Shown here piece after piece: positions 1-45,237 of a stretch of 64,000 nt of DNA; the first letter of the stretch is position 1; each line of letters opens with the position of its first letter. A model generated the notes under the pieces. The model was not told the origin of the DNA. It ran no database searches and worked only from the letters and a program-made list of their open reading frames with translations. A program made the position numbers and the translations under genes. This DNA is from Psychrobacter arcticus 273-4. Lineage in GTDB: Bacteria > Pseudomonadota > Gammaproteobacteria > Pseudomonadales > Moraxellaceae. The stretch covers positions 1,240,001 through 1,304,000 of the forward strand of contig NC_007204.1 of assembly GCF_000012305.1 (NCBI RefSeq), written 5' to 3'.

Positions 1-935
1 CGGCTACTGCAGCGATGATGCTACCACTGGCGCTTGGTATTCTAACGCAGGTTGACCGCGAAAAAGACCGTGGTACTTTTGTATTCGTTCTATTAGGTAT
101 TGCTTATTCTGCCAGCCTTGGTGGTTTGGGTACGATTGTTGGTTCGCCACCCAATGCTATTGCTGCCAAAGCGCTTGATATCGCGTTTGTCGATTGGATG
201 AAGTTTGGTATTCCAATGATGTTAGTGCTGTTGCCATTACTGCTCGGTGCAATGTATTGGTTCCTTAAGCCTAACCTTAATCGTCAAGTAACGCTTAACG
301 AAGATGAGCCTATTGCATGGAATAAGCCACGTGTGCTAACGATTATTGTCTTTATCGTAACAGCGCTGAGCTGGATACTCTCGAAACAAATTGGTGAAGC
401 ACTTAATATTGATGATGTTGATTCTATTGTGGCGCTGTTAGCGGCATCAGCGGTGGTCAGCTTAGGTTTGGTGTCATGGAAGCAAGTTTCTGATAACACC
501 GACTGGGGCGTACTCATGTTGTTCGGTGGTGGTATTGCGCTATCAACGGTTTTAAAAGTTTCAGGAGCATCTTTGGTTCTTGGTCAAGCAGTTGCTAATG
601 GACTGTCCTCTGCACCGCTTATCGTAGTGGTACTTGCAGTCTCGGCATTCATTATATTCTTGACAGAATTTGCTTCTAATACTGCTTCTGCAGCCTTGTT
701 AGTCCCTGTATTTGCTGCCATTGCTGAGCAAATGGGTCTGCCACCTGCAATATTAGTAATGATTATCGGTATCGGTGCTTCTTGTGCGTTTATGCTACCG
801 GTTGCCACTCCACCAAACGCTATTGTCTTTGGTACAGGTCTTATTAAGCAGACAGAGATGATACGTGTTGGTCTTATACTTAATGTTATTGCTACATTTG
901 TACTAGGTTTGTGGGCATATTTTTTCTTGCTATAA
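1..935 (+). CDS. DASS (SLC13) family sodium/anion symporter, C-terminal part
   Basis: The gene runs in from the left edge: the frame is open from base 3 and reads ATAAMMLPLALGI, which in this family lies mid-protein after the first Asn-Thr signature, so the N-terminal half is missing. About 310 residues remain, with roughly seven hydrophobic segments. Seen motifs are GTIVGSPPNA (first half), FASNTASAALLVP (the second SNT sodium/substrate site) and the family signature PVATPPNAIVFG. DASS proteins import dicarboxylates, citrate or sulfate with sodium ions across the inner membrane; the substrate cannot be told from this fragment. A strong terminator follows within 30 bases, so it ends its transcript. 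Confidence 0.85.
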   Translation, partial: ATAAMMLPLALGILTQVDREKDRGTFVFVLLGIAYSASLGGLGTIVGSPPNAIAAKALDIAFVDWMKFGIPMMLVLLPLLLGAMYWFLKPNLNRQVTLNEDEPIAWNKPRVLTIIVFIVTALSWILSKQIGEALNIDDVDSIVALLAASAVVSLGLVSWKQVSDNTDWGVLMLFGGGIALSTVLKVSGASLVLGQAVANGLSSAPLIVVVLAVSAFIIFLTEFASNTASAALLVPVFAAIAEQMGLPPAILVMIIGIGASCAFMLPVATPPNAIVFGTGLIKQTEMIRVGLILNVIATFVLGLWAYFFLL

Positions 936-1106: not shown

Positions 1107-1244
1107 TATAGTCGGTGAAAAGTAATATCGATACAACAGGTATTGCTGGTGTAAATTTTTTGCAGCCTCTGTCTGCGTAGGCACAGCAAGCAAGAAAAAT
1201 TTGCACCAGCAATACGGTAGCGACTTTAAAGTATTTCAACTATA
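1107..1244 (+). repeat. 138-bp TATAGT element, copy 1 (core inverted)
   Basis: This non-coding element starts TATAGTCGGTG and ends TTCAACTATA. Its centre holds 16-bp inverted arms, GCTGGTGTAAATTTTT at 1145-1160 and AAAAATTTGCACCAGC at 1195-1210. Outer flanks match the other four copies in the window, but the segment between and including the arms is reverse-complemented: here the GCAGCC end lies nearest the TATAGTCGG end. It sits in the 375-bp spacer before hrpA; the rest of that spacer shows no gene. The TATA at both ends fits a TA target duplication. No transposase is present, so it would be non-autonomous (MITE-like). Confidence 0.9.
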
Positions 1245-9347: not shown

Positions 9348-9485
9348 TATAGTAGGTGAACAGTAATATCGATACAACAGGTACTACTGGTGCAAATTTT
9401 TCTTGCTGGCTGTGCCTACGCAGACAGAGGCTGCAAAAAATTTACACCAGCAATACGGTAGCGACTTTAAAGTATTTCAACTATA
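9348..9485 (+). repeat. 138-bp TATAGT element, copy 2 (standard core)
   Basis: A full-length copy starting TATAGTAGGTG and ending TTCAACTATA. Inverted arms are CTGGTGCAAATTTTT and AAAAATTTACACCAG-like sequence. The core reads CTTGC...GGCTGC from the TATAGT(C/A)GG end, which is the majority orientation in this window. It has small substitutions relative to copies 4 and 5 (for example GCTGGCTG for GCTTGCTG). An open reading frame runs across it by chance or selection (see findings). It separates the FabH-like gene from prfA. Confidence 0.92.
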
Positions 9486-12513: not shown

Positions 12514-12651
12514 TATAGTTGAAATACTTTAAAGTCGCTACCGTATTGCTGGTGTAAATTTTTTGCAGCCTCTGTCTGCGTAGGCACAGCAAGCAAGAAA
12601 AATTTGCACCAGCAGTACGTATTGTATCTATATTACTTTTCACCGACTATA
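12514..12651 (-). repeat. 138-bp TATAGT element, copy 3 (standard core)
   Basis: A full-length copy in reverse orientation: the TTGAAATACTTT end comes first on the plus strand and the CACCGACTATA end last. Read from the TATAGTCGG end the core orientation is the same as in copies 2, 4 and 5. It lies three bases after the lysS stop, so it supplies the 3' untranslated region. The 16-bp hairpin arms with A/T-rich bases next to the loop could act as a transcript end signal, though no clean terminator T tract follows. Confidence 0.92.
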
Positions 12652-19942: not shown

Positions 19943-20080
19943 TATAGTCGGTGAAAAGTAATATCGATACAACACGTACTACTGGTGCAAATTTTTCTTG
20001 CTTGCTGTGCCTACGCAGACAGAGGCTGCAAAAAATTTACACCAGCAATACGGTAGCGACTTTAAAGTATTTCAACTATA
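19943..20080 (+). repeat. 138-bp TATAGT element, copy 4 (standard core)
   Basis: A full-length copy with TATAGTCGGTG and TTCAACTATA ends and arms CTGGTGCAAATTTTT and AAAAATTTACACCAG. Sequence is almost identical to copy 5 and close to copy 2. It sits upstream of the minus-strand ABC1 kinase gene, where it could displace or carry promoter signals. Confidence 0.93.
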
Positions 20081-20209: not shown

Positions 20210-20284
20210 TATAGTAAGTTCAGACTAAAATAGGTACAAGTATGATACCAGTAGCCTGTATTTTTCTAAAGTGAATTGACTATA
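20210..20284. repeat. 75-bp element with imperfect TATAGT terminal repeats
   Basis: The stretch begins TATAGTAAGTTCA and ends TGAATTGACTATA; the ends are inverted repeats matching at 11 of 13 positions. The terminal hexamer TATAGT is the same as in the 138-bp family, and TATA at both ends again fits a TA duplication, but the interior is unrelated. It lies in the spacer downstream of purD. Only one copy is in the window, so a mobile-element reading rests on the ends. Confidence 0.55.
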
Positions 20285-27099: not shown

Positions 27100-30000
27100 T
27101 TATACTTTGTCATTCACAATACGCCGACACCCTTGACCGCTGATTTGGCTAAAGCCGCCAGATATTTTTTCAACCTTTATTTGGGTCAAGATACGATCTT
27201 TTAACGCCTGTACGTGAGAGATTATACCAATCAATTTCCCTTCTTGTTGCAAGCCAGTCAAGGTATCTAGAGCAATATCCAACGACTCTTCATCAAGCGT
27301 GCCAAAACCTTCATCCAAAAACAGCGAATCCACACGGATATTGTGACTGGCCATTTGCGACAATCCAAGGGCAAGCGCCAGACTGATGATAAAGCCTTCG
27401 CCGCCGGATAAGTTTTTGGTACTACGAATATCGCCGCCCTGATAGTTATCAATGACATTAAGCTCAAGCGGATTGCTGTCATCATGAATCAGCAGATAGC
27501 GGTCACTCATCTTTTGTAATTGGCTATTGGCATGGCTAATCATAACTTCAAAGGTTAAGCCTTGTGCAAAGGTGCGATATTTCTTACCATCCGCTGAACC
27601 AATTAAAATATGCAGCTGCTGCCAAATTTTTAATTTTTCTTTTTGCACATTGATGGCGGTAAGTTGGGCTGCTCGTTGACCTTTTTGGTTCTCATTGTCT
27701 TTGAGCTTTTGAACAATAGCACCAATCTGTTGGCTGAGCTGATCTATCTCCATCTGAATGTGCTGATGTTGGGCAGCAATCGTTTCTTGGCTGGCATTTG
27801 TCATAGCAAGAGACAGGTTCTGCTCTAATGATTGCTGGGTGCTATCTAACTGTGACTTTGCCTGCTGCAAGGCACTATCAATCGCAAGTTTACGGAGATG
27901 TAAAGCATCACGCTCTTCTTTAGGCAGGCGTGCACGGATAAAAGCATCTTCATCCATAAACTGCGCCGCTTCTAGATGCTCCAGAAATACAGCTTGTTGC
28001 GTATTCAGTGCTGTCGTAGCAGACTGCAATGCTGCCAATATCTGTCGTTGTCTGCTTTGCAATTGCGCTAATACTTGCTGCGTGCTGTCTAACTGTCTTT
28101 GAGCATTTGCCTGTTTGGCTTTTGCGTCATCGACTGCGCTGCGCAGTAGTGTGTCTTCAGACTCTGTGTTTTTGTCTGCAAAAATTGCAGTCCTGTCGCT
28201 CTTGACCTGCTCAAGAGCGACATTTTTATCCGCTATCAAGTGTTCGAGTCTTTTTAGAGCGCTTTCATCAGAGGTGAGCTGAGCTTGTTTGGTGTCAATT
28301 TGAGCGCGCACCGTACTCAATGTATTGCTTAGCTGTTGCTGGCTATTTTTTTGCTCATTAAAATGCTTTTTTAGCTGGCTTAGCATGCTGCGTTGTTGAC
28401 GTAATCTATTAATATGACGCTCATAGTCGCTGCTATCTAGTATGGTTTGCTCATCAATACTAGCGTCCAATTGCTTAAGTGCGCTTTGAATGTCTGTTCT
28501 TTGAAAATCAATACTCAAATATTCTCTATAGCTATCCGCCGGATACTTATCTGCCAATGATAAAATACTGCTAGTAATAGCGGCTAATGCCAAAAAGTTG
28601 GCGGCTATCTTATCCTCAATGGTCCCTGCTTTCTGCGAGTGTAGCTTGATATCCGTCGTCAGATTATTTAACTTGCTCATCAGTACCTGCTGCTGATTTT
28701 CATCACTCTTTATAGCAATATTTAGCTCTGATATGCTTGCCGTTAAGTCATCATGTTGAATTAATAGGTCTTTAAGAGACTGCTTTTGCTCGAGTAGCTT
28801 TTGTTTGGCGCTGTCTAGTAAAGATAAAGTGCTTTCAATATCACTATTACTATCAATGTCAGGTTTATTTATATCTTCACTCAGTTGATAAAGCGGATGG
28901 ACACTCCCTGCAATCGCTTTGGAATGATTTTTATTGGCGTCAAAAAGTAAAAGCAGGCTATCTTGAATGTCTTTGCCCAACATCTCACACTGCTGCTGTA
29001 ACGGGGCTAACTGCTGCTGTTGATGGTTAATGGCTTCATTCTTAGTAGCATGGTCGATATGATGTTTAGATAATGCTTGTTCGAGATGCTCAATGAGCGT
29101 CTCAAGCTCAGATATTTGCTGCTGGGTCTGCTGCGTCAGCGACAACGCTTGTTTATTGTCAATCTGACCATCTAATAGCGGATGATGTTGACCATAAGGG
29201 TGCTCATGCGCGCCGCACAGCGGGCAGGGTGTGCCATCTTTGAGCTCGACGATGTAATCTTCAAGCCTTGCGACTTTTTGCAATAGAGCAAGGTGCGTCT
29301 GCTTGTCGTGTTTTTTAAGCTTCGTGCTCTGAATATCTACGCGATGAGTGGCAATTAAGTCGTCTAAGACCGTCAGTTCCTGATTCAATACCGGTAGCGC
29401 GAGATTGATTTTATGGATTTGACGGGTCAGCTCAAACCGTTGTTTAATCTTAAATCTCACTTGCTCAATCTGTGCGCTGATGTGCTCGATTTGCTCTTGC
29501 TCACCGCGCATAATAGCAAGCGGCTGGTTTTGAGTGACTACTGCTTGCTGCTGCTGTAGATTTAGCAGTTGCTCGCGCCGCTGCGCTATCAATGAAAGAT
29601 CAGTGTTTTGCTGTTTGGATAATATCTCAAAATCAGCTTGTAGCTGGCAGGCCAGGCTATGTTGGCTAATTCTAGCTGCTGAAAAATCAGAGTTATCTTC
29701 TAGTAGCGCCCTTAATCGTTGACAGCTACTATCAAAGATTGTCATATCGGTATCAAGGTCACTCAGCTCTGGGTAGCTGCTAAAGTACTGGTCGATATTA
29801 TTTAGCTGAGTTTTGGTGCGATCGGCAGTTTGCTGATGGTTTTGTATTTCTTGGCATAATATCTGTGCATTACCTACCAATAAGTCCTTACGCTGGTTGT
29901 ATTCCACTAAGGACTGAGACTGCTGTCTGATATTATGATCTAATTCGCGCACCTGTGCGATGACAGGCAAGTTTGTTTGAAGGTTGTCTGCGGCTTGTTT

Positions 30001-31023
30001 TCCTAGCGTGTTGGCATCGTCTAAATGGCATGCAGCTTGTGCCAGCGCTTGTTGCTGGGCAGGGATTTGGCTCAGCAAACTCTGTTGTTCAACATCTAGC
30101 TTCTTTACCGTCTCACGACTATAGCTAAGCTCGCGAAACTGGCTATCAATCTCTAATGCCTTGTTGGCAATGCTTAAACGCTTGGCTTCTGGAACAAAGG
30201 CTTGCTGCGCTTGCTGGGCGGTTGCAAACTCGCTTTGATAAATAGATAGGTTATTTTGCAGCTGTTGTACGTTATTTAGCCATTGCAGCTGCTCACTTAA
30301 TGTCTTAAAGCTTTGTCGCTGTGTGCTTTGCTGTTGATTTAATGCTTTTAGCTCGGCTGCCTGCAGATTTTCGTCTTCAATACTTAGCAAGGATAAGCCA
30401 TCAACGCCTGCCTGCAATTTACTGAGCACATCTTCTTCAAAGCGTTTTTTCTCATGAACATTGAGTGAGATTTTGGCATAGATAGCAGTACCCGTTATTT
30501 TCTCTAAAATCGCCGCTCTATCACCGATATCAGATTTTAAAAACGCAGCAAAACTGCCTTGCGCCAGCATGATGGAGCGGGTAAATTGGCTAAAATCCAT
30601 GCCAATAAGCGCTTGGATATAAGCAGAGGTTTTGGATTTTTTTTCTTCTAAAATCTTGCCAGACTTGACCTCGCTAATCTCGTGCTTAATCGGTAATAAG
30701 TTGCCTTTGGCTTTTTTGTGGGCACGATGTTGGTACCATGAACACTGATATCGCTTGGCGTCAATCTCGATAATAACTTCTGCCGAGCACTCTCCTGTAC
30801 CTTGGGTCATGATCTCATTGGTAGAGCCAGTAATATCACCGAGTCGTGGCGTTTGGCTGTAGAGCGCCAAACAAATAGCGTCCAAAATGGTGGTCTTGCC
30901 AGCGCCTGTTTGCCCCGTAATGGCAAAGATACCTTCGTTAAGAAAAGCGGCGTCACTAAAATCAATGTGCCATTCGCCTTTTAAGGAGTTGAGGTTTTTT
31001 AGTCTTAATTCAATTAGGCGCAT
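27100..31023 (-). CDS. sbcC: Nuclease SbcCD, ATPase subunit SbcC
   Basis: A 1,307-residue SMC/Rad50-type protein. Walker A GQTGAGKT is at residues 37-44. Two long coiled-coil arms (Gln/Leu-rich) flank the zinc hook CPLCGAHEHPYG near residue 600. The C-terminal half-domain has the signature NLSGGEGFIISLALALGL, Walker B SLFLDEGFGTLDEESL and a final His switch IGIISHVQALK. Partnered with SbcD it cuts DNA hairpins and protein-blocked ends. It is longer than E. coli SbcC (1,048), due to longer coils. It lies 72 bases downstream of sbcD, in the same transcript. Confidence 0.95.
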   Translation of the reverse strand: MRLIELRLKNLNSLKGEWHIDFSDAAFLNEGIFAITGQTGAGKTTILDAICLALYSQTPRLGDITGSTNEIMTQGTGECSAEVIIEIDAKRYQCSWYQHRAHKKAKGNLLPIKHEISEVKSGKILEEKKSKTSAYIQALIGMDFSQFTRSIMLAQGSFAAFLKSDIGDRAAILEKITGTAIYAKISLNVHEKKRFEEDVLSKLQAGVDGLSLLSIEDENLQAAELKALNQQQSTQRQSFKTLSEQLQWLNNVQQLQNNLSIYQSEFATAQQAQQAFVPEAKRLSIANKALEIDSQFRELSYSRETVKKLDVEQQSLLSQIPAQQQALAQAACHLDDANTLGKQAADNLQTNLPVIAQVRELDHNIRQQSQSLVEYNQRKDLLVGNAQILCQEIQNHQQTADRTKTQLNNIDQYFSSYPELSDLDTDMTIFDSSCQRLRALLEDNSDFSAARISQHSLACQLQADFEILSKQQNTDLSLIAQRREQLLNLQQQQAVVTQNQPLAIMRGEQEQIEHISAQIEQVRFKIKQRFELTRQIHKINLALPVLNQELTVLDDLIATHRVDIQSTKLKKHDKQTHLALLQKVARLEDYIVELKDGTPCPLCGAHEHPYGQHHPLLDGQIDNKQALSLTQQTQQQISELETLIEHLEQALSKHHIDHATKNEAINHQQQQLAPLQQQCEMLGKDIQDSLLLLFDANKNHSKAIAGSVHPLYQLSEDINKPDIDSNSDIESTLSLLDSAKQKLLEQKQSLKDLLIQHDDLTASISELNIAIKSDENQQQVLMSKLNNLTTDIKLHSQKAGTIEDKIAANFLALAAITSSILSLADKYPADSYREYLSIDFQRTDIQSALKQLDASIDEQTILDSSDYERHINRLRQQRSMLSQLKKHFNEQKNSQQQLSNTLSTVRAQIDTKQAQLTSDESALKRLEHLIADKNVALEQVKSDRTAIFADKNTESEDTLLRSAVDDAKAKQANAQRQLDSTQQVLAQLQSRQRQILAALQSATTALNTQQAVFLEHLEAAQFMDEDAFIRARLPKEERDALHLRKLAIDSALQQAKSQLDSTQQSLEQNLSLAMTNASQETIAAQHQHIQMEIDQLSQQIGAIVQKLKDNENQKGQRAAQLTAINVQKEKLKIWQQLHILIGSADGKKYRTFAQGLTFEVMISHANSQLQKMSDRYLLIHDDSNPLELNVIDNYQGGDIRSTKNLSGGEGFIISLALALGLSQMASHNIRVDSLFLDEGFGTLDEESLDIALDTLTGLQQEGKLIGIISHVQALKDRILTQIKVEKISGGFSQISGQGCRRIVNDKV

Positions 31024-31095
31024 GGCATGGTCTTATTTTTATAGATATTAATGATAATTTACCGTTAGTTGTATCAGGGTTATGAGTTTTAGGTA

Positions 31096-32649
31096 TTATT
31101 CAGCTTGAGTATCTGCATGATGCAGGTCATAAACGATTTGACCATAAGCCTCTCGCAAGGTTAGTCTTTGCTCATCAGGGACGTTGTGAGCGGTTAAGCA
31201 GCGCTCAAATACTTCTTGCTCATTTAAATCTTGTAGCGTCTCAGAAATTTGTTGTTGATTCAGTACTTTGTTATAAGTGCGCGTATCTTTTATTTTTAAC
31301 ACCTCACAGGGTAAGCCCTCTACCATCGCTTGAATACTTTCACGCAATTCGCTAACCACCTCATCACCGGTGTAAATAATCTCTAACCAGACCGATTCTG
31401 TATCAGTCAGAGTCTTAATAGTGTTATCAACTGTTTGATTGATGGTATCCAAATCACCCGATACTTGCGCCAATTTTTGGAATGTTGGAATAGGTAGGGA
31501 AGTGATTTGCATCTGACGGGCGGTATCATGATGCAGTAGCGTGGCGGTTAAAGTGGAATGAGTACTTAGAATAACCTCTGTTTGTTTAGAGGTTTCTTCA
31601 ATACTCGTTTCACTATGCTGATCGCTTTCTATAGACTCCACATCAGCAAACAGGTCATCCATAAAGCTCGCTGCCTGATTGACTGCTTTAGCGGTTTTTT
31701 CTACTGTCTTGTCAATGTTGATAATGGAATTCGTCAGCTGCTGATGACAAATTCTCTTAGACGTATTTGTCAGTGTTAGATCTTTATTCTTTAGCACCGA
31801 CCCAAACTGCACCAGCAATACTTGTTTTTGCTGGCGCGCCTCACCAAAACCCATCGCAATAGGCGAGCCTGAATAGCGAATGGTTTCACGCCCACCGACG
31901 CGCTGCGGTACATGCAAATGTCCAAGCGCTACATAATCAAAACTTTCACTGAACATATCAGCGGAGACTTTACCAAGCGAGCCAATATACAGCTCACGCA
32001 CCCCATCATCATCGGTAGTGGTGCCGCCGGCAGCAAACAGATGTCCTGTAGCTATGATAGGGACGTGCCGCTTATGCACTTTGGCTAATTCAGCTTGTTT
32101 GGCTCTGGAAATCTCTGCAACACCATCATAGTGCGCGCAGATACCAGCGATAACATTGGCGTCTTTGCTTTGAGCTGACTCGCCAGCACTACTACTGCGC
32201 ACATCACGGTCACGCAGATAAGGGACAGCCGTGATAATACAATGCGGATTACCATCTGCATCATCTAATACCATCACCTCATCATTCAAGTCTTCGCAAG
32301 CCGTACCAACGACATGGACGTTTAAAAACTTAAGTACATGACTTGGGGCATCCAAAAATGTTGGTGAATCATGATTGCCAGCGACGATGACGACATGCTG
32401 ACAGCATGATTTTGAAACCGTGCCTAAAAACTCATAATACAGCGCTTGGGCTTTATTACTTGGCGTCATAGTATCAAAGATATCACCAGCGACAATAAGT
32501 ACATCCACTTGCTGCGCACTAATGGTGTCTTGTAGCCAGCTTAAAAAGGCGGCAAATTCATCATAGCGCAGACGTCCATAAAGTCGTCGTCCCAAATGCC
32601 AGTCAGAGGTGTGCAGGATAGTGAGAGGGGTAACAGCAGATACAGACAT
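31096..32649 (-). CDS. sbcD: Nuclease SbcCD, nuclease subunit SbcD
   Basis: A 517-residue metallophosphoesterase of the Mre11 family. Metal-binding motifs are TSDWHLGRRL, VAGDIFDTM, VAGNHDSPT, ATGHLFA and ALGHLHVPQR, all in the first 250 residues. E. coli SbcD has 400 residues; the surplus here is a polar, poorly conserved stretch at about residues 280-360 before the C-terminal capping region. The start at 32649 (MSVSAV) fits family length; the frame extends eleven codons further up. It works with SbcC, encoded next. Confidence 0.93.
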   Translation of the reverse strand: MSVSAVTPLTILHTSDWHLGRRLYGRLRYDEFAAFLSWLQDTISAQQVDVLIVAGDIFDTMTPSNKAQALYYEFLGTVSKSCCQHVVIVAGNHDSPTFLDAPSHVLKFLNVHVVGTACEDLNDEVMVLDDADGNPHCIITAVPYLRDRDVRSSSAGESAQSKDANVIAGICAHYDGVAEISRAKQAELAKVHKRHVPIIATGHLFAAGGTTTDDDGVRELYIGSLGKVSADMFSESFDYVALGHLHVPQRVGGRETIRYSGSPIAMGFGEARQQKQVLLVQFGSVLKNKDLTLTNTSKRICHQQLTNSIINIDKTVEKTAKAVNQAASFMDDLFADVESIESDQHSETSIEETSKQTEVILSTHSTLTATLLHHDTARQMQITSLPIPTFQKLAQVSGDLDTINQTVDNTIKTLTDTESVWLEIIYTGDEVVSELRESIQAMVEGLPCEVLKIKDTRTYNKVLNQQQISETLQDLNEQEVFERCLTAHNVPDEQRLTLREAYGQIVYDLHHADTQAE

Positions 32650-32724
32650 AATGAGGCTTAATGGTGAATAAAAGACAGCCATTATTCTAGCAAGGATTAG
32701 AGAAGTTTGCTCTGTTGCAATCAG

Positions 32725-37884: not shown

Positions 37885-38022
37885 TATAGTTGAAATACTT
37901 TAAAGTCGCTACAGTATTACTGGTGTAAATTTTTTGCAGCCTCTGTCTGCGTAGGCACAGCAAGCAAGAAAAATTTGCACCAGTAGTACGTGTTGTATCG
38001 ATATTACTTTTCACCGACTATA
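37885..38022 (-). repeat. 138-bp TATAGT element, copy 5 (standard core)
   Basis: A full-length copy in reverse orientation in the 471-bp spacer between divergent cysI and sat, about 90 bases before the sat ATG. Its interior (CAGTAATACTGTAGCG read from the other strand) shares an ACTG variant with the short derivative next to cysA. The remaining spacer is A/T-rich with no gene; any CysB/Cbl binding sites there are not evident by eye. Confidence 0.93.
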
Positions 38023-44468: not shown

Positions 44469-45191
44469 ATGAGCATCGAGATTCGCAACGTTAATAAGAA
44501 ATTTGGTAACTTTACCGCCTTAGATGATATCAATATCACGGTACCTACGGGTAAATTGACGACTTTATTGGGTCCTTCAGGCTGCGGTAAAACCACCTTG
44601 CTGCGTATCATTGCCGGTCTTGAGTATTCGGACTCTGGGCAGATACTGTTTGATGAACTAGACGTCACCAATACTCCGGTACAAAAGCGCCATATCGGCT
44701 TCATGTTTCAGCACTATGCATTATTTCGCCATAAAAATGTTGCTGACAATGTGGGCTTTGGTCTGACGTTGTTACCAAAGAATGAGCGCCCAAGTAAAGC
44801 GGATATCAATAAGCGCGTGGCTGAGCTATTAGATTTGGTGCAGTTGCCACAAGTGGCAACTGCTTACCCGCATCAATTATCAGGCGGTCAGCGTCAGCGT
44901 ATTGCGCTGGCAAGAGCACTTGCGGTTAAGCCAAAACTACTATTATTAGATGAGCCGTTTGGGGCGCTGGATGCCAAAGTACGTAAAGAGCTGCGTACCT
45001 GGTTAAAAGACATTCATCATGAGCTTGGCATCACTAGCATCATGGTTACTCATGACCAAGAAGAGGCAAGGGCGGTATCTGATGAGATTGTGGTGATGAA
45101 TCATGGTCGGGTTGAACAGGTAGGCACCTCAGAAGCATTGATCAATCGCCCAGCCAATGCCTTTGTCAGTGATTTCTTAGACTTGGTATAG
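44469..45191 (+). CDS. cysA: Sulfate ABC transporter ATPase CysA, short form
   Basis: A 240-residue ABC ATPase. It has Walker [12 protein letters not shown], the Q-loop [16 protein letters not shown], signature [16 protein letters not shown], Walker [21 protein letters not shown] and the His switch [16 protein letters not shown]. coli CysA has 365 residues; here the protein stops at the end of the nucleotide-binding domain ([10 protein letters not shown]) and the C-terminal regulatory/TOBE-like domain is absent. The stop TAG lies inside a TATAGT hexamer that begins a truncated repeat element. The ATG at 44469 follows a 94-base gap after cysW. The core should still hydrolyse ATP. Confidence 0.9.
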
Positions 45192-45237
45192 TGTTTAATA
45201 AAGAATACTGTAGCGACTTTAAAGTATTTCAACTATA
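45187..45237 (+). repeat. Truncated TATAGT element at the cysA stop
   Basis: Bases 45204-45237 (AATACTGTAGCG through TTCAACTATA) match the right end of the 138-bp element exactly as in copy 5. A TATAGT hexamer at 45187-45192 could be the left end, giving a 51-bp internal-deletion derivative. The left match beyond the hexamer is poor, so a solo right end is the alternative. The cysA stop codon is inside the hexamer. Confidence 0.7.

Follow-up and report, generated by a model that had tools for sequence, protein, structure and literature searches.

One copy of a short repeat carries a hairpin core flipped in place. Judging from the sequence, the flip was probably made when replication switched template once from one hairpin arm to the other, and it would be a mutational by-product rather than a regulated switch. 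The repeat is a 138-bp element, found in five copies in the 64,000-nucleotide stretch of the Psychrobacter arcticus 273-4 genome that we analyzed (the window). In the copy at 1107-1244, the outer flanks follow the family layout and the hairpin core at 1140-1216 is reverse-complemented.

The 1107 copy runs from TATAGT to ACTATA on the + strand. Its left flank (1107-1139, TATAGTCGGTGAAAAGTAATATCGATACAACAG) and right flank (1217-1244, GTAGCGACTTTAAAGTATTTCAACTATA) are both in family orientation on the + strand. The core between them, composed of arm, loop and arm, is reversed relative to the flanks and lies on the - strand, as does its loop GCTGTGCCTACGCAGACAGAGGCTGC (1162-1187). A repeat search found the core to be complementary to 19975-20051 at 97% and to 9381-9456 at 96%. 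In the same search, whole 138-bp copies pair at 94-99%, except for the 1107 copy, for which the two repeat families that contain it give 77% and 68%. The junctions and the opposite-sense pairing of the core bear out the original prediction, which described an inverted core within unchanged flanks and gave the left arm as GTATTGCTGGTGTAAA, the sequence we find. The predicted DNA fold has an energy of -26.5 kcal/mol (z -5.4) for the 1107 copy and -20.5 kcal/mol (z -2.9) for the 19943 copy.

The remaining four copies are in normal orientation, at 9348-9485 and 19943-20080 on the + strand and at 12514-12651 and 37885-38022 on the - strand. All five were listed in the original prediction. Each extends from TATAGT to ACTATA and has the layout claimed for it there. 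The start of the 9348 copy was misquoted as TATAGTCGG and is actually TATAGTAGG. A sixth relative at 45187-45237 (+ strand) is 51 bp long; it has an internal deletion and keeps the right end alone. A search for CAAATTTTTCTTGC with up to two mismatches gave seven matches against 1.6 expected. Five of them are exact, and these are the five window copies. None of 100 shuffles reached seven matches, so the window copies are not due to chance. A 75-bp TATAGT...ACTATA stretch without the loop is also found at 20210-20284, about 130 bases from the 19943 copy.

All five window copies are located between reading frames of at least 200 amino acids. The genes flanking the 1107 copy encode a DASS transporter and HrpA. 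No open reading frame of at least 80 amino acids is found between 935 and 1380. An Rfam scan of 1000-1350 returned no fitting family, its two miRNA matches being far under the gathering scores. No terminator-like site is present in 900-1450, and promoter and terminator counts are close to the shuffle means. SbcCD was correctly placed in the window by the original prediction: adjoining SbcC- and SbcD-like genes occupy 27100-32682 on the - strand, with SbcC matches under the curated cut-offs and one SbcD model above its own. Nothing in the analysis points to a part for SbcCD in the flip. The genome is a single contig of 2,650,701 bases, and the G+C content of the window is 43%.

The family is abundant in this genome (G000). 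The core of the element has 337 matches at up to three mismatches. At the same threshold, the left junction is found 308 times in the normal and once in the inverted form, and the right junction 305 times and once. The 1107 copy is the sole inverted copy found in this genome. Counting the 19943 copy, no fewer than 33 full-length copies in the genome share its exact sequence, with 40 of 382 candidates scored. Both flanks were classified for 113 distinct loop matches in fetched pieces of this genome: 104 are normal, one is inverted and eight are others, namely two non-elements, three members of another subfamily, two hybrids and one element with an expanded left flank. The hybrids, L251:18418 and L259:14631, join the left half of one subfamily to the right half of another at the common loop. 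In L050, the left flank next to the loop at 1513 contains a run of 5-base repeats of the ACAAT type, as if expanded.

In the proposed mechanism, the replicating strand would leave its template on reaching the outer end of the left arm and continue on the opposite strand. There it would copy, in reverse, the right arm, then the loop and the inner part of the left arm, before it switched back inside the CACCAG of the right arm. In the expected product, the loop is inverted and the left arm has taken on the sequence of the right arm. To model one such switch, we kept the left and right parts of a copy and placed between them a stretch of that copy in reverse complement. Applied to the copy L256:16507, one switch rebuilds the 1107 copy with no mismatches, whereas without a switch each of the 104 copies differs from it by at least 29 mismatches; about 40 of these 104 were out of register in the one-switch model, their start being misplaced. 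With 27 further copies, including the commonest form, one switch leaves a single mismatch. The first switch point falls where the arms end on the outside, in a zone of equivalent breakpoints at 1140-1143 (GTA; a=33..36 of the element). The return switch point falls at 1204-1210 in the right arm (t=97..103 of the element). This is the CACCAG within which the original prediction had set the boundary. The source stretch is offset by 12 bases from the stretch it replaced, and therefore the event was not a symmetric inversion. We infer that a polymerase switching templates caused the event, and that this happened in the 1107 copy rather than in a source copy since lost.

The closest competitor is a conservative inversion between the arms, through RecA-type exchange, annealing or cruciform cutting and religation, in a copy whose arms were already homogenized or had a point mutation. 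Such parents are plausible in that the right-arm form is found on both sides in 6 of 98 copies, and symmetric inversion of L053, L255 or L265 leaves just one mismatch. However, none of 61 gap-free copies is turned into the 1107 sequence without a mismatch by a symmetric two-ended inversion, so that one extra change is needed, and the normal left junction of the exact parent is absent from the genome, with no exact instance among 33 matches at up to one mismatch. The longest perfect arms in the seven inverted copies known to us are 8-21 nt. Arms of this length are short for RecA-type exchange. We regard conservative inversion as unlikely. The fit margin of the template switch over inversion plus one point change is one base; it favors the switch and is not proof, and a parent now lost could erase it. 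Of the RecA-type or cruciform inversion across the arms put forward in the original prediction, the inversion of the core is real, while symmetric inversion fits slightly worse than an asymmetric switch. Alternatively, another copy may have paired in reverse via the palindromic arms and donated its core by ectopic gene conversion. The two hybrids mean that copies do exchange sequence, and the 27 copies at one mismatch after one switch make a donor indistinguishable. Against this, conversion would have to involve two exchanges over short arms that are separated by a loop without homology, and single-exchange products with two left or two right flanks are absent from the 113 classified loop matches of this genome. 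We find this route quite improbable.

A site-specific recombinase flipping the core as a phase-variable switch was also proposed. The core is flanked by inverted repeats and both orientations occur in nature. However, the arm sequences differ among the inverted copies, so that no common recombination site is seen, and the inverted layout is seen in about 1 of 300 copies of this genome. Sigma-70-like matches in 900-1450 number four, no clear excess over the shuffle mean of 2.1 (sd 1.6). The single one overlapping the 1107 element ends in its TATAGT left end, and none is in the core. Given these arms, this rarity and the slightly better fit of an asymmetric switch, the proposal is not supported, and we consider a recombinase highly improbable. 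The by-product option offered beside it is supported by the one-switch fit and the rarity. That a repeated hairpin was misassembled or misread here is hardly credible. Near-identical palindromic copies by the hundred would be expected to make assembly hard, but a mis-join would not be expected to flip just 64-77 bases between unique flanks and also convert an arm, and the same inverted layout is found in other genomes (L063, L078, L086, L091, L173 and L200).

Comparison of the arms within copies provides further information on the template switch. Among 104 normal copies, 98 are readable in both arms and six are unreadable. Identical 10-nt arms are present in 23 of the 98, with 18.2 expected. 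The left-arm form occurs twice in 16 of them, the right-arm form twice in six and a new form (ATTTC) twice in one. In 10,000 shuffles, the mean arm match was reached by 36 and the number of identical pairs by 264. Most of the 16 left-type homogenized copies have an extra base in common (TACTGTAG) and may descend from one change; much of the homogenization signal is due to these 16 copies. The longest perfect arms have a median of 14 nt in the seven inverted copies and 8 nt in the other 253, ten ambiguous ones included (one-sided Mann-Whitney p 0.002, in a post hoc test devised after the inverted copies were known and with seven being few). Outside this genome, the comparison of six inverted copies with 185 others (median 10) gives p 0.007. 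The inverted copy L200 has a longest perfect arm of just 8 nt. Both the homogenization and the longer arms of inverted copies are consistent with a template switch. In addition, for 130 of 159 copies from named genomes (at least 120 loci), the two halves fold better together than they do with another copy drawn at random. This test indicates coherence and not selection, because subfamilies are mixed in it.

The core flip is rare but recurrent in the genus. The inverted left-junction pattern is present in this genome and in one other of the 105 genus genomes, G104, which contains one complete (L063) and one truncated (L062) inverted copy against 17 normal matches. We compared 260 distinct copies: 69 from this genome, 32 from the other G genomes and 159 from a loop scan of named genomes, which covers at least 120 loci (L098-L217), each titled Psychrobacter. 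Classified by both flanks together, seven are inverted and ten are ambiguous. The seven are L061 (the 1107 copy), L063, L078, L086, L091, L173 and L200. Two of them were not found blindly, since the 1107 copy was given and L063 turned up in a search that targeted inverted copies. Besides L063, 190 copies lie outside this genome, of which five are inverted and ten ambiguous. The inverted copies are spread over G000, G104 (L063, with L200 assigned there), G013, G025, G032 and the uncultured isolate of L173, which makes five or six genomes, as this isolate may equal one of the G genomes. Two candidates were left uncounted: L117:3233 is ambiguous by flank similarity, and L190:6794, which looked inverted by one end motif, reads as a normal copy with a fragment of a second element next to it.

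For each of the seven, at least five of the six nearest flank relatives are in normal orientation. The flips thus look recurrent and derived, rather than like marks of two old subfamilies defined by core orientation. Such subfamilies, with orientation fixed at each locus across strains, are what the original prediction had named as telling against ongoing inversion. Because L061 is near L063 and L173 is near L200, the independence of all seven inversions is something that we infer. DNA downstream of the 1107 element is matched in 103 of 105 genomes, and the five best relatives (L272-L276) were inspected. No copy of the 1107 insertion was recognized at the matching place in these five, so there is no orthologous copy to compare. 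In L273 and L275, the region upstream of hrpA has no element of this kind. In L274 and L276, the stretch displayed lay within that gene. No loop match with up to four mismatches is found anywhere in L273-L276. L272 (G018) has two elements at that place. They belong to other subfamilies and have a different upstream gene beside them, so they are not evidently the same insertion.

In the parts of two studies consulted here, arm homogenization and spacer inversion are traced to template switching between short inverted repeats (PMC8604942, PMC8794818). In yeast REG2, spacer inversion and arm conversion occur together (PMC8604942), and loop inversion in rRNA hairpins is put down to inter-strand switching (PMC8794818). 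The 1107 copy resembles the cases in those parts of the two studies in its inverted loop, an arm matching its partner and boundaries within the arms, and the family resembles them in recurrence and a preference for long arms (PMC8604942, PMC8794818). In the same material the published spacers are 2-8 nt, whereas the turned stretch here is at least 64 nt, loop included (PMC8604942, PMC8794818). Unlike these cases, ours is a bacterial mobile repeat with more than 300 sister copies displaying the parent state. Since spacer inversion by template switching is already published, we take the 1107 flip as a new case of a known process. We found no report of a flipped bacterial MITE core and no description of this repeat in the literature searched, mostly titles and abstract openings with few subscription journals; in PMC12306157, Psychrobacter arcticus appears once, in a genome-statistics table. 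A lone odd copy of a repeat need not imply a switch. More than 300 similar hairpins form a natural counter of template-switch events, in which the parent is known, the event is legible per base and the arm match is varied. The family could yield the per-copy frequency of long loop inversions and arm conversion in bacteria.

Of the 105 genus genomes, 66 have the loop pattern. The frame of the loop, TTGCTTGCTGT...ACAGAGGC, is common to elements with very different stems and flanks (L098-L217, at least 120 loci), and the tips vary, with TCGCAGGCGTG, AGCTAGCCG and TATC as alternatives among the matches listed for the same loci. A left-end match is followed by TTGCT[TG]GCTGT...ACAGAGGC, with up to two mismatches, in 33 of 49 cases among the matches listed for L098-L217; this is a hand count that excludes the scan triggers and in which at least two pairs read one element twice. 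The remaining 16 have no loop frame, and several of them are truncated or have a more diverged loop. The frame could be kept up by selection acting on the hairpin, by sequence exchange among copies via the loop, as in the hybrids L251:18418 and L259:14631, or by both. There is a modest chance, which we put forward tentatively, that the loop is not passive: its frame would be kept genus-wide in either orientation, the folded hairpin being recognized and flips tolerated. If so, the hairpin would be recognized by a host protein or an RNA-level process that is indifferent to loop orientation.

The 138-bp element is a non-autonomous, non-coding MITE derived from an IS630-family insertion sequence. 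Its center is an imperfect palindrome with arms of about 20 bp and a loop of about 30-40 nt, and no transposase gene is contained in its 138 bp. The TATAGTC ends of the MITE resemble those of IS630-family elements, 912-920 bp long, that occur in the genus. Among 30 fetched DDE_3 loci, 13 contain a stretch of 912-920 bp that is bounded on either side by TATAGT-type ends. The IS630-family element at L231 has ends TATAGTCAGTTCAAAATAAAAGAGATACAACC and TATAGTCGGTTCTTTATAAATAAGATACAATT, and its two reading frames match DDE_3 and HTH_Tnp_IS630; the loop is absent from it. By eye, relatives with TATAGTCAGTCCTAAATAAAA ends are closely similar to the IS630-family elements in this respect, and the window's own subfamily (TATAGTCGGT...GATACA) is so more loosely. 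A TA duplication is seen in one nested insertion, read from L110 alone (copies at 978 and 1062), as ...GAGACTA, element, TA CAAAAAAATC.... This genome contains three partial DDE_3 matches (G000:C1:180972, 741392 and 1505728) and no others. Two are above the cut-off and the longest open frame is 87 amino acids, so the family here seems to have outlived its transposase. No DDE_3 match is found in G003, which nevertheless has 33 loop matches.

PMC2229807 reviews bacterial MITEs that have TA ends, and the next two comparisons, made by description, draw on portions of that source. RUP of Streptococcus pneumoniae is likewise shorter than 200 bp and gene-free, with TA ends and a long stem-loop, and mobilization by an IS630-family element is proposed or likely for both (PMC2229807). 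The element described here differs from RUP in that a single 2.65-Mb genome contains more than 300 copies of it beside three partial DDE_3 pieces. The Correia (NEMIS) element of Neisseria is also a MITE, close to ours in size, that has TA at its termini and gives transcripts with stem-loops; the portion of PMC2229807 drawn on here names no parent element for it, whereas IS630-family elements with similar ends accompany our repeat. MITEAba12 is also a short MITE of the Moraxellaceae (PMC6382973). As presented in the section of that paper used here, it is a different element, 113 bp long, with ends GGCTTTGTTGCACAAA and 9-bp target duplications (PMC6382973).
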